From: Dactylosporangium sp. AC04546
GTDB lineage: Bacteria > Actinomycetota > Actinomycetes > Mycobacteriales > Micromonosporaceae
Length of the DNA stretch: 64,000 nt
Assembly (NCBI RefSeq): GCF_022095675.1
Contig: NZ_JAHYSG010000035.1
Span: 1-64,000, forward strand
Direction of reading: 5' to 3'
Under the pieces are notes generated by a model, which was not told the origin of the DNA, made no database searches, and was given only the letters and a program-made list of their open reading frames with translations. A program made the position numbers and the translations under genes. Every line of letters begins with the position of its first letter. Position 1 is the stretch's first letter. Of the stretch, positions 44,197-47,050 are shown one piece after another.

Positions 44197-45597
44197 GTGA
44201 CCGAGATCCCCAGGGGCGCAGTCGCCCGCACCGCACGGCTGGCGTCACTGCCCCTAGGGCTCGCCGGGCGGGCCGCGCTCGGCCTCGGCAAGCGCGTCAC
44301 GGGCATGGCCGCCGACGTCGTTTCCGCCGACGTCCAGCGACGCACCGCCGAGCATCTGTTCAGCGTTCTCGGCCAGCTCAAGGGCGGCGCGATGAAGATG
44401 GGGCAGGCGCTGTCCGTCTTCGAGGCCGCACTGCCGGAGGAGCTCGCCGGGCCCTACCGGGCCGCCCTCACCAAGCTCCAGGAGGCCGCGCCGCCGCTGC
44501 CGGCCGCCAGCGTGCACAAGGTGCTCGCCGAGTCGCTGGGCGCCGACTGGCGCGACCTGTTCACCGAGTTCGACGACAAGCCGGCCGCCGCGGCGAGCAT
44601 CGGCCAGGTGCACCGCGGGGTCTGGGCCGACGGGCGCCAGGTGGCCGTCAAGGTCCAGTATCCCGGGGCCGGCGAAGCGCTGCGCTCCGACCTCAACCAG
44701 CTCGCCCGGTTCGCCGGCCTGTTCAAGGCCATCCAGCCCGGCCTCGATGTGAAGCCGCTGGTGCAGGAGATCCGCGACCGGGTCACCGAGGAGCTCGACT
44801 ACGAGCTGGAGGCCCGCTCGCAGACCGCCTTCGCGGCGGCGTTCGCCGGCGACCCCGACATCTTCGTGCCCGAGGTCCTCGCGTCGTCCCCGCGCGTCCT
44901 GGTGACCGAGTGGGTCGACGGCATCCCGCTGTCGACGATCATCGCCTCGGGCACCGAGGAGGAGCGCGACCACGCCGGCGAGCGGATGGCGCTGCTCCAC
45001 TTCTCGGCGCCGGCACGCGCCGAGATGCTGCACGCCGACCCGCATCCGGGAAACTTTCGCATCCTGGCCGACGGCCGGCTCGGCGTCCTCGACTTCGGCG
45101 CCGTCGCCCGGCTGCCCGGTGGCCACCCGGAGGTGATCGGCCGGCTCACCCGGCTGGCGCTCGCCGGCGACGCCCAGGCGGTCCTGGCAGGCCTCCAGGG
45201 CGAGGGCTTCATCAAGGGCGATCCGAAGATCGACGCCGAGGCGGTGCTCGCGTACATCAGGCCGATGCTCGACCCCCTCGCCGAGGACGAGTTCCGATTC
45301 AGCCGGGCCTGGCTGCGGGCCGAGGCGGGGCGGCTGGCCAACCCGAAGAGCCCGGCCTACACGATGAGCCGCCAGCTCAACCTCCCGCCGTCCTACATGC
45401 TGACCCACCGGGTCACGCTCGGCTCGATCGGCGTCCTGTGCCAGCTGGAGGCCAAGGCGCCGTACCGCTCGATCCTCGAACGCTGGCTTCCAGGATTCGC
45501 GGAGCCGGAGCCTGAGCCCGAGAACGCCCCGCGCGCGGTCGTGAAGCGGGCGACGAAGTCGACCCGCCGCCGCAAGACCGCTGAAGACGCCGCGTAA
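44197..45597 (+). CDS. ABC1/AarF/UbiB-family atypical kinase
   Basis: A 466-residue protein with the UbiB signatures: KMGQ (67-70), the Ala-rich loop AAASIGQVH (131-139) replacing the Gly-rich loop, Lys152 in VAVKVQ, catalytic HADPHPGN (about 276-283) and LDFG (about 296-299). Members support quinone or lipid metabolism, acting on membranes; the substrate is unknown. The C-terminus ends with a Lys/Arg-rich tail (VKRATKSTRRRKTAED). GTG 44197 is used because MTEIPRG fits the family N-terminus and it begins 9 bp after the preceding stop. Equivalent to Rv3197 in position. Confidence 0.92.
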   Translation: MTEIPRGAVARTARLASLPLGLAGRAALGLGKRVTGMAADVVSADVQRRTAEHLFSVLGQLKGGAMKMGQALSVFEAALPEELAGPYRAALTKLQEAAPPLPAASVHKVLAESLGADWRDLFTEFDDKPAAAASIGQVHRGVWADGRQVAVKVQYPGAGEALRSDLNQLARFAGLFKAIQPGLDVKPLVQEIRDRVTEELDYELEARSQTAFAAAFAGDPDIFVPEVLASSPRVLVTEWVDGIPLSTIIASGTEEERDHAGERMALLHFSAPARAEMLHADPHPGNFRILADGRLGVLDFGAVARLPGGHPEVIGRLTRLALAGDAQAVLAGLQGEGFIKGDPKIDAEAVLAYIRPMLDPLAEDEFRFSRAWLRAEAGRLANPKSPAYTMSRQLNLPPSYMLTHRVTLGSIGVLCQLEAKAPYRSILERWLPGFAEPEPEPENAPRAVVKRATKSTRRRKTAEDAA

Positions 45598-45599
45598 AC

Positions 45600-45660
45600 A
45601 GACGTTGGTCGATCTACCCTCATCCGGTCCCGGATCGTGAGGGTAGATCGACCAACGTCT
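45600..45660. terminator. Long perfect inverted repeat between convergent genes
   Basis: The arms 45600-45622 and 45638-45660 form a perfect 23-bp inverted repeat with a 15-nt loop, just after the ABC1 stop (45597) and before the end of the minus-strand small gene (45714). Likely a bidirectional terminator; unusually long and perfect. Confidence 0.7.
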
Positions 45661-45713: not shown

Positions 45714-45860
45714 TCAGCGCAGGCTCAGCTGCCGCTCCTGCTCGCGACGGGCGCGCATGGCGATCTGACGGGCGGACGAGTGAGCCTCAGCGAGCTGTAC
45801 CGACTGAGGCCGACGCATTCGTGCGCGTGACAGTGCTTCGTGGAGAAGTTGCAAGGACAT
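45714..45860 (-). CDS. Small basic protein downstream of whiB7
   Basis: A 48-residue helical, Arg/Gln-rich peptide (LQLLHEALSRARMRRPQSVQ, then MRARREQERQL). ATG 45860 is preceded by AGGAG with 7 nt spacing, a strong ribosome site, which makes it a real gene rather than a shadow. It is 115 bp after the whiB7 stop on the same strand and is followed by a hairpin. No family is recognised. It could be co-transcribed with whiB7 and thus be part of the antibiotic response (inference). Confidence 0.7.
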   Translation of the reverse strand: MSLQLLHEALSRARMRRPQSVQLAEAHSSARQIAMRARREQERQLSLR

Positions 45861-45975: not shown

Positions 45976-46359
45976 TCAGGCCGCCACCCCCGCGGCGACA
46001 GCCGCGGCGCGAGCAGCAACTTCGACCCGCAGGACGGCGTCGCGCGCGACGTCCTCCTTGCGCGGACGACCCCGCGGACGCTTCCGCGGCACCACGGCAC
46101 CGCGCTCGAAGATCTCGCCACCCCAGACACCCCAGGGCTCGGCGCGCTCGATCGCGCCGGCCAGGCACTCGACACGGAGCGGGCACTCCGCGCAGAGGGA
46201 CTTGGCCAGCTCGAGCTCGGCCGGCGAGTCAGCGAACCACAGGTCCGGGTCGAAGGTACGGCAGGGCAGGTCGGACTTGACGCCTCGCGCAGCGACACGG
46301 AGGCGCTCGTCGGCGGCCGACTCGACACGCACGTCGATCGATGCCAAAGCCAGGCTCAT
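45976..46359 (-). CDS. whiB7: WhiB7-type transcriptional regulator
   Basis: A 127-residue Wbl protein that carries a [4Fe-4S] cluster and acts with the housekeeping sigma factor. Cluster ligands are Cys33, Cys56, Cys59 and Cys65 (CAECPLRVEC), with the turn GVWGG at 77-81. The C-terminus has an AT-hook (RGRPR, 96-100), which is specific for WhiB7. The position between the ABC1 gene and uvrD2 is the one found for whiB7 in mycobacteria. In those bacteria it activates intrinsic antibiotic resistance genes. The gene has a long leader with an upstream ORF and a terminator hairpin, as expected for attenuation control. I start at ATG 46359. Confidence 0.93.
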   Translation of the reverse strand: MSLALASIDVRVESAADERLRVAARGVKSDLPCRTFDPDLWFADSPAELELAKSLCAECPLRVECLAGAIERAEPWGVWGGEIFERGAVVPRKRPRGRPRKEDVARDAVLRVEVAARAAAVAAGVAA

Positions 46360-46417
46360 CCCGGTCACCCCTTTCTGTTTCTCGATCGTTTGGTGTGATC
46401 GTCGGGACAAAATCAAT

Positions 46418-46453
46418 GAGGCCGCGGATCCCGGTGTCGGGTTCCGCGGCCTC
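46418..46453 (-). terminator. Attenuator hairpin in whiB7 leader
   Basis: On the minus strand GAGGCCGCGGA (46453-46443) pairs with TCCGCGGCCTC (46428-46418), and inner C/G pairs extend the stem. It is followed by ATTGATTTTGT, a T-rich tract, and then whiB7 about 60 nt on. Two extra copies of CCTCGAGG (46450-46457 and 46491-46498) and of CCGCGG (46444-46449 and 46506-46511) could form an alternative, antiterminating pair with the end of the upstream ORF. Confidence 0.7.
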
Positions 46454-46477
46454 GAGGTGAGCCGGAGAGTCGGTCTG

Positions 46478-46945
46478 CTAGACCGGCCTGCCTCGAGGTG
46501 GTATGCCGCGGACTCCGCCATTGGGCTTCGGAGCCGTCATGTCGTGCTTGGCGGTGAACCCACTGGTCCCCTGAACCTGGATCCCACGCCGGTCGAGCTG
46601 AATCACCTGCTGCGGCTGGTCCGCAACCGGGCGCTCAGCGCCGACTTTGCCGTCGCCGACCAGTCCGTCGATCCGGCGCGCCCCGCCAACCCGGACCGAC
46701 TCGGTAGCCAGCGCCTCGACGGCGGCCGGAACCAGGACGGAAACGGAGACGGAAACAGCCGGAACCGCGGCCGGGACCGGGACGACCGCCGCAACCGGGG
46801 CCTGCGCGACGGCGACGCCGCCAAGGACAGACTCCTGCCACGGAGCGAGAGCTGACGGCGGCGAGACGCGGCGGGCCGGCAGGGCCGGCGGCATGCAGGC
46901 AGCGAACGTCGCCGATGGGCGCTCGTTGGTTAGATAGAGCTTCAC
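46478..46945 (-). CDS. Upstream ORF in whiB7 leader (155 residues)
   Basis: Starts at GTG 46945 (MKLYLTNERPSATFA) and ends at 46478 with a TAG. The third codon positions are largely G or C, as in real genes, though T is somewhat more common than in its neighbours. The composition is odd: a middle run rich in Val, Pro and Ala (VAQAPVAAVVPVPAAVP) and a C-terminus GGVRGIPPRGRPV. No family is recognised. Its end overlaps the sequences that could pair against the attenuator, so its translation could set whiB7 expression. A shorter uORF starting inside it is also possible. Confidence 0.55.
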   Translation of the reverse strand: MKLYLTNERPSATFAACMPPALPARRVSPPSALAPWQESVLGGVAVAQAPVAAVVPVPAAVPAVSVSVSVLVPAAVEALATESVRVGGARRIDGLVGDGKVGAERPVADQPQQVIQLDRRGIQVQGTSGFTAKHDMTAPKPNGGVRGIPPRGRPV

Positions 46946-47009
46946 CGGGACTCACCACCTCTCCACACTCGCCAGCTGTCGACCGCCGGCCTTCCGGCGT
47001 CGTGTTCGC

Positions 47010-47050
47010 AGGCTATGCCGTCCCGCGACGGTAGGGCAATCGAATTATCG
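47010..47050 (-). promoter_or_regulatory. Candidate whiB7 promoter with AT-rich upstream element
   Basis: On the minus strand a -35 TTGCCC (47039-47034) and a -10 TAGCCT (47015-47010) have an 18-bp spacer. An AT-rich block, GATAATTCGA (about 47049-47040), lies immediately upstream of the -35. WhiB7-type regulators bind such AT-rich blocks with their AT-hook, so autoregulation is plausible. The start site would be about 640 nt before whiB7. Confidence 0.5.

Follow-up and report, generated by a model that had tools for sequence, protein, structure and literature searches.

The leader of whiB7 in the window (the whole 64-kb stretch of DNA analysed here) is very probably a ribosome-sensing transcription attenuator, and it belongs to the published whiB7/wblC attenuator kind, with an unusually long upstream open reading frame (uORF). 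This reading is carried by the anatomy of the leader, its conservation, a covarying pairing between the end of the uORF and the terminator, and a weak amino-acid constraint on the uORF, all of them seen by comparing sequences. The elements listed in an earlier reading of the same DNA (the first-pass annotation) were all found, on the minus strand.

Leader anatomy and its association with whiB7

The features considered are given below with their coordinates in the window.

49152-47071, minus strand: UvrD-type helicase with HRDC domain (uvrD2-like), upstream of the leader
47010..47048, minus strand: promoter, with AT-rich ATAATT (47048-47043), -35 TTGCCC (47039-47034), an 18-nt spacer and -10 TAGCCT (47015-47010)
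46478..46945, minus strand: uORF of 155 codons, from GTG 46945 to TAG 46480-46478, with SD-like AGGTGG at 46960-46955
46556..46573, minus strand: second conserved block CAGGGGACCAGTGGGTTC (QGTSGF), inside the uORF, with apparent nucleotide-level constraint
46491..46511, minus strand: 5' half of the antiterminator, inside the uORF: CCGCGG 46511-46506, CCTCGAGG 46498-46491, then GCCGG 46487-46483
46444..46465, minus strand: antiterminator 3' side, overlapping the terminator 5' arm: CCGGC 46465-46461, CCTCGAGG 46457-46450, CCGCGG 46449-46444
46406..46453, minus strand: predicted intrinsic terminator (by folding), stem-loop 46453-46418 plus a weak T tract ATTGATTTTG from 46417
45976..46359, minus strand: whiB7, 127 codons (Pfam Whib PF02467, 53.4 bits vs. 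a cut-off of 23.6)
44197-45597, plus strand: ABC1-type kinase ORF, convergent, after whiB7

The window most likely comes from a Dactylosporangium (Micromonosporaceae). Matches to whiB7 in six genomes of the same genus were 94–100% identical. The neighbourhood order helicase/whiB7/ABC1-kinase was found at the locus, fitting whiB7 as the downstream gene, and by synteny we take this gene to be the orthologue of M. tuberculosis whiB7. The kinase ORF resembles the NCBIfam entry 'macrolide-binding ATPase MABP-1' (528.6 bits, short of the cut-off at 800) and, lying beside whiB7, is a drug-binding candidate. A 48-codon ORF directly after whiB7 (45714-45860, minus strand, MSLQLLHEALSRARMRRPQ...), for which Pfam and NCBIfam searches gave no match, possibly belongs to the whiB7 transcript; a similar small ORF was found 3' of whiB7 in 49 of 110 loci by a loose pattern, part of the matches being inspected. 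Just past the kinase stop and facing the end of the whiB7 transcript is a perfect inverted repeat with 23-base arms (45600-45660), perhaps a two-way transcription end. Rfam, searched at gathering scores over the whole window, returned one tRNA and nothing else.

The promoter with an AT-rich block upstream of the -35 element, in which the first-pass annotation had seen a fit to WhiB7 autoregulation, is recognisable in the sequence, and TTGCCC, the 18-nt spacer and TAGCCT recur together with the AT-rich stretch at the same site in 7/7 Dactylosporangium leaders; transcription would start near 47003. The spacer of the best-scoring promoter in 97 leaders was 18 nt in 84 cases, 17 nt in 12 and 19 nt in one, counts to be read in the light of a scoring rule that itself favours sites with such spacers. 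According to the accessible part of PMC3905903, WhiB7 activation in mycobacteria requires an AT-rich block at -35, and a SigA-type promoter with such a block, as expected of a whiB7/wblC attenuator, is what the leader appears to carry. A simple sigma-70 consensus scan called 0 promoters at the leader and a consensus scan called 0 terminators, probably owing to GC-rich hexamers and to the interruptions in the T tract ATTGATTTTG. In one Dactylosporangium (L005, genome G001) the sequence just upstream of the promoter is unlike the helicase end of its relatives, and the leader is still kept.

The intrinsic terminator hairpin proposed just before whiB7 was borne out by folding, with -33.6 kcal/mol for 46453-46418 (z -6.4 vs. 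dinucleotide shuffles), and two-sided changes were found at 4 of its 15 pairs in 44 sequences, nearly all from Micromonosporaceae. The stem is strong; the window and several relatives have a weak T tract, and the tract is interrupted in most Dactylosporangium loci (e.g., L003, L005, and L006) but uninterrupted in L007 and many Micromonospora. In order to assess how regularly uORF and terminator accompany whiB7, we applied a rule demanding a GC-rich hairpin with a T-containing tail at most 420 nt upstream of the whiB7 match, and an ORF of 18 or more codons that is preceded by an SD and ends 4–45 nt before the hairpin. The search across the class gave a whiB7 match at E ≤ 1e-18 in 204 of 246 genomes, and the leaders are a selection among the matches listed. 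The rule held for 178 of 185 whiB7 leaders (at least five genomes being counted twice: L031/L003, L032/L007, L076/L012, L080/L017, and L091/L018) vs. 3 of 577 random window positions, while a terminator-like hairpin alone occurred at 151 of these 577; it also held for 40/40 held-out leaders, fetched afterwards. Among the seven exceptions (L004, L020, L023, L087, L143, L157, and L161), L004 does carry a uORF, which did not pass the SD filter, and L087 offers no more than 438 nt of upstream sequence. Between uORF stop and terminator arm there are 24 nt in the window and a median of 23 nt in the 178 leaders (10th–90th percentile 19–26, range 7–40).

These counts bear on the idea that the hairpin merely ends upstream transcription and that the ORF stays open by chance because the DNA is GC-rich. 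Other reading frames in the leader region are indeed open as well, up to 317 codons, yet the hairpin lies about 620 nt past the end of uvrD2 and 58 nt upstream of whiB7, uORF and hairpin go with whiB7 in nearly every leader, and the pairing described below is specific to the uORF end; we consider a chance frame hardly credible.

Pairing between the uORF end and the terminator arm

The repeats that had been noticed at the ORF end and in the terminator arm proved genuine, as both CCGCGG and CCTCGAGG recur downstream, and CCGCGG, CCTCGAGG and GCCGG can nest with their partners into an antiterminator. Covariation was analysed in 118 of the 178 called leaders, i.e., those among L008-L030 and L085-L185 (124 loci). 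When both partners came from one leader, the duplex of uORF end and terminator arm had a mean of -28.5 kcal/mol vs. -23.6 with permuted partners (sd 0.33, 200 permutations), a spread that does not equal a probability, as related species are not independent; a control arm taken 60–105 nt before the stop gave -21.2 (own) and -21.3 (permuted). Runs of at least 7 pairs between the arms were present in 64/118 leaders vs. 20.7% with permuted partners, and the longest run was shorter than 7 pairs in 54/118. The compensated pairs were CCTCGAGG/CCTCGAGG, CCTGGAG/CTCCAGG, GCCTCGAAG/CTTCGAGGC, CCTCGAAGT/ACTTCGAGG, and TTGGAGAG/CTCTCCAG. Covariation was slight in the 44 sequences that are nearly all from Micromonosporaceae (a two-sided change at one pair, in two cells), because the antiterminator hardly varies there. 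From this pattern, an antiterminator common to the uORF end and the terminator arm, as is characteristic of whiB7/wblC leaders, is predicted.

In folds of growing transcripts, the antiterminator differed by at most 0.1 kcal/mol from the optimum when the transcript ended at 46444, 46438, 46432 or 46426, and from 46420 on the terminator was favoured by 3.4–6.2 kcal/mol. Since the terminator is more stable in the complete leader, antitermination would have to be kinetic, with the antiterminator forming first. In the mechanism that we propose, RNA polymerase would start near 47003 from the SigA-type promoter, which WhiB7 itself could boost, and a ribosome would translate the 155-codon uORF behind it. 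During normal growth, the ribosome at the stop codon would cover the last uORF codons (with CCTCGAGG 46498-46491), leaving the downstream CCTCGAGGCCGCGG free for the terminator, and transcription would halt before whiB7. If ribosomes slow down or are missing (e.g., with ribosome-targeting drugs or amino-acid shortage), the uORF end would be naked, and its CCGCGG, CCTCGAGG and GCCGG could pair with their partners CCGGC, CCTCGAGG and CCGCGG while the 3' arm of the terminator is still to be made, upon which whiB7 would be transcribed. A naked uORF end should thus permit an early antiterminator, which a ribosome sitting at the stop codon would be expected to block; the function would be the reading of the frame, the peptide being mostly a by-product. 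Translation, termination, drug induction and autoactivation are assigned to this locus by analogy with published work on relatives. Architecture, tight spacing between stop and terminator, covarying pairing and the same model in print all agree with the translation-dependent attenuation suggested by the first-pass annotation.

A variant of this mechanism would be amino-acid-specific, with a Val/Ala-rich middle of the uORF sensing charged Val or Ala tRNA instead of drugs. Val makes up 16.1% of the uORF, compared with 8.7% for three long window ORFs, its share in residues 37-90 is 29.6% (Ala 24.1%), and whiB7 is induced by amino-acid starvation in relatives, as stated in the available portion of PMC12121999. 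However, overall Ala is not in excess (15.5% vs. 15.6%), which speaks against alanine sensing, Val amounts to just 11.8% in Micromonosporaceae uORFs, and the middle is poorly conserved and begins far from the pairing region. General slowing of ribosomes would act alike, and such sensing, which we find improbable as an explanation of the leader, may add to the sensing of drugs but not replace it.

Constraint on the uORF

The attenuator proposed here asks for an open frame, and the 155-codon ORF upstream of whiB7, with its GTG start, TAG stop and SD-like sequence, was confirmed. Start, frame and stop are retained in seven Dactylosporangium loci, in which the uORF spans 155–198 codons. The remark that the ORF is longer than usual holds insofar as these lengths are the extreme of the known range, but whiB7 uORFs are not generally short, the median being 85 codons in 178 leaders. 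uORFs of 79–145 codons were found in 73 leaders from other genera, nearly all Micromonosporaceae (one MAG without family assignment, L097, is included). In 97 leaders, nearly all from outside this family (two Micromonosporaceae, L026 and L111, are wrongly included), the median was 76 codons and two reached 155; the starts were set by an SD rule that may err at single loci, and L156 and L178, the leaders from outside the family with at least 155 codons, are doubtful. A separate observation concerns Mycobacterium palustre and a family that we take to be mycobacterial (f8), whose short Ala-rich uORFs (L110, L112, L123, L208, L212, L215, and L216) have an SVDxG-like ending that differs from the PPRG and WSPPV types.

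The first-pass annotation had also allowed for a real protein product of the ORF. A functional small protein made from the same transcript as whiB7, with the attenuator secondary, would agree with the 155 codons, with the 52 database proteins that match the uORF (hypothetical where named, and from Dactylosporangium where the organism is named), and with the conservation of both uORF ends in the family. Purifying selection along the whole length was nevertheless not seen, as dN/dS over all 21 Dactylosporangium pairs was 0.96 for codons 13-115, a ratio that may be inflated by a method without codon-bias correction. With the same reservation on codon bias, four single pairs gave 0.46, 0.91, 0.93 and 1.25 for these codons, the first, from a close pair, being in favour of a protein. 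For codons 116-143, dN/dS was 0.48 in the genus. Furthermore, the length varies by up to 43 codons within the genus, the product has no family match in Pfam and NCBIfam, and the last 12 codons show 0 synonymous and one non-synonymous change in the genus and are therefore kept as RNA. Gaps among the three closest genus pairs (9, 3, 36 and 15 nt) are each a multiple of 3; more distant pairs align too poorly at the DNA level for judging gaps. The 'biased codons' turned out to be only moderately so, with a GC content of 0.80/0.58/0.82 at codon positions 1/2/3 in the middle of the seven genus uORFs. The uORF probably yields no working protein, and a protein as its main role appears very unlikely. 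Across the genus, the frame is retained, the middle seems close to free and the 3' end seems kept as nucleotides, which argues that selection maintains the open frame and not the peptide.

The conserved C-terminal peptide (PPRGRPV, WSPPV or RPWRDPA before the stop) was considered as an arrest peptide and rejected as the main cause, because its codons are the covarying antiterminator arm and because the frame of this arm differs between the PPRG and WSPPV types; an added peptide effect may exist on top of the RNA pairing.

The second conserved block lies outside the terminator and antiterminator, and the model based on these does not explain it. It is found 13–84 codons before the uORF stop and reads VQGTSGF in the window, GTSGFTG in Micromonospora, GTGLS in family f31 (presumably Streptomycetaceae) and QGTG[LMV][SP] elsewhere; its nucleotides are approximately CAGGGGACCRGTNTGTCC in several families and GGGACCANTGG in Micromonosporaceae (46570-46560 in the window). 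In the held-out set, the 18-base motif (at most 4 mismatches) was found in 20/40 leaders, all in frame 0, vs. 0.46 expected from codon shuffles, and since 18 of these 20 come from f31, they do not count as 20 independent cases. The 97 leaders of the first set gave 25 matches in frame and 3 out of frame (1.2 expected), counts that are biased, as the motif was written by eye from this set. The block was not recognised in 21/78 Micromonosporaceae and 2/23 f31 uORFs, and among held-out leaders outside f31 it was recognised in L210 and L221 and not in 18 others. The variable codon in Micromonosporaceae is mostly AGT, ACT or AAT, with T as third base in 55/57 block sequences (these include close relatives; T is kept in 48/51 distinct 33-mers) vs. 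71/544 Ser/Asn/Thr ANx codons in the remainder of these uORFs. For f31, GGT was found as the second Gly codon in 21/21 vs. 34/141 elsewhere, and the codon after it varies in its first base. With a synonymous third base fixed and the amino acid varying, the constraint on the block appears to act on nucleotides.

A hairpin was not supported as the basis of the block, as the third base of a Gly codon inside the would-be stem varies in Micromonosporaceae and the local fold has a median rank of 0.24 among windows of the same uORF (57 uORFs). The consensus for RNA polymerase pausing, given as G-11G-10T-3G-2Y-1G+1 in the accessible text of PMC6062546, is fitted by the class form of the block except at -2, and the window form fits the short G-10Y-1G+1 only. 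Matches to this consensus occur 0.96 times per uORF (23 uORFs, the block itself in 20/23) vs. 0.66 in codon shuffles and are too common there to be accepted as proof of pausing. Tentatively, the block could be a separate nucleotide-level element, either a programmed RNA polymerase pause that gives the first ribosome time to catch up, or a different cis-acting RNA signal.

Comparison with known attenuators

uORF-mediated transcription attenuation of whiB7/wblC was reportedly described by Burian and Thompson in 2018 and by Lee, Lee and Roe in 2022 (Mol Microbiol 117:179). The literature search found no publication on whiB7 in Dactylosporangium. What the present analysis adds is class-wide comparative evidence for the whiB7 attenuator, i.e., a covarying antiterminator, a nucleotide-conserved 3' end and a weakly constrained middle, and the long Dactylosporangium uORF offers a natural experiment on whether sensitivity depends on the length of the uORF. 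The comparison also bears on the question, raised in the available portion of PMC12121999, whether antibiotic-induced ribosome stalling takes place inside the whiB7 uORF.

The same attenuation model is given for actinobacterial whiB7 in the accessible parts of PMC10727445, PMC11550727 and PMC13393426. As in the whiB7/wblC attenuator outlined in the available sections of PMC10727445 and PMC13393426, the leader combines a putatively autoactivated promoter, a long leader, a uORF and a predicted Rho-independent terminator, and the predicted antiterminator draws on uORF and terminator sequence. It is unlike typical whiB7/wblC leaders in its 155 codons (vs. the median of 85) and its interrupted T tract. 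The second conserved block is not named in the available portions of the published descriptions, and, if it works, would be a part missing from the attenuator model as given there.

In the ilvB1 leader attenuator of Mycobacterium tuberculosis and classical amino-acid attenuators, following the accessible part of PMC13236596, the ribosome at the stop likewise masks the antiterminator and the terminator forms, but their uORF is short and holds regulatory codons for the end product, whereas the uORF in the window is long and has no such conserved run in its middle. The attenuators of ABCF resistance genes (are5sc, tiaA, and vga(A)), as presented in the available text of PMC12421871, are alike in that uORF, terminator and antiterminator answer ribosome-binding drugs; they have small uORFs and respond to a narrow drug group, while the whiB7 leader is reported, in the part of PMC12121999 at hand, to answer many classes.
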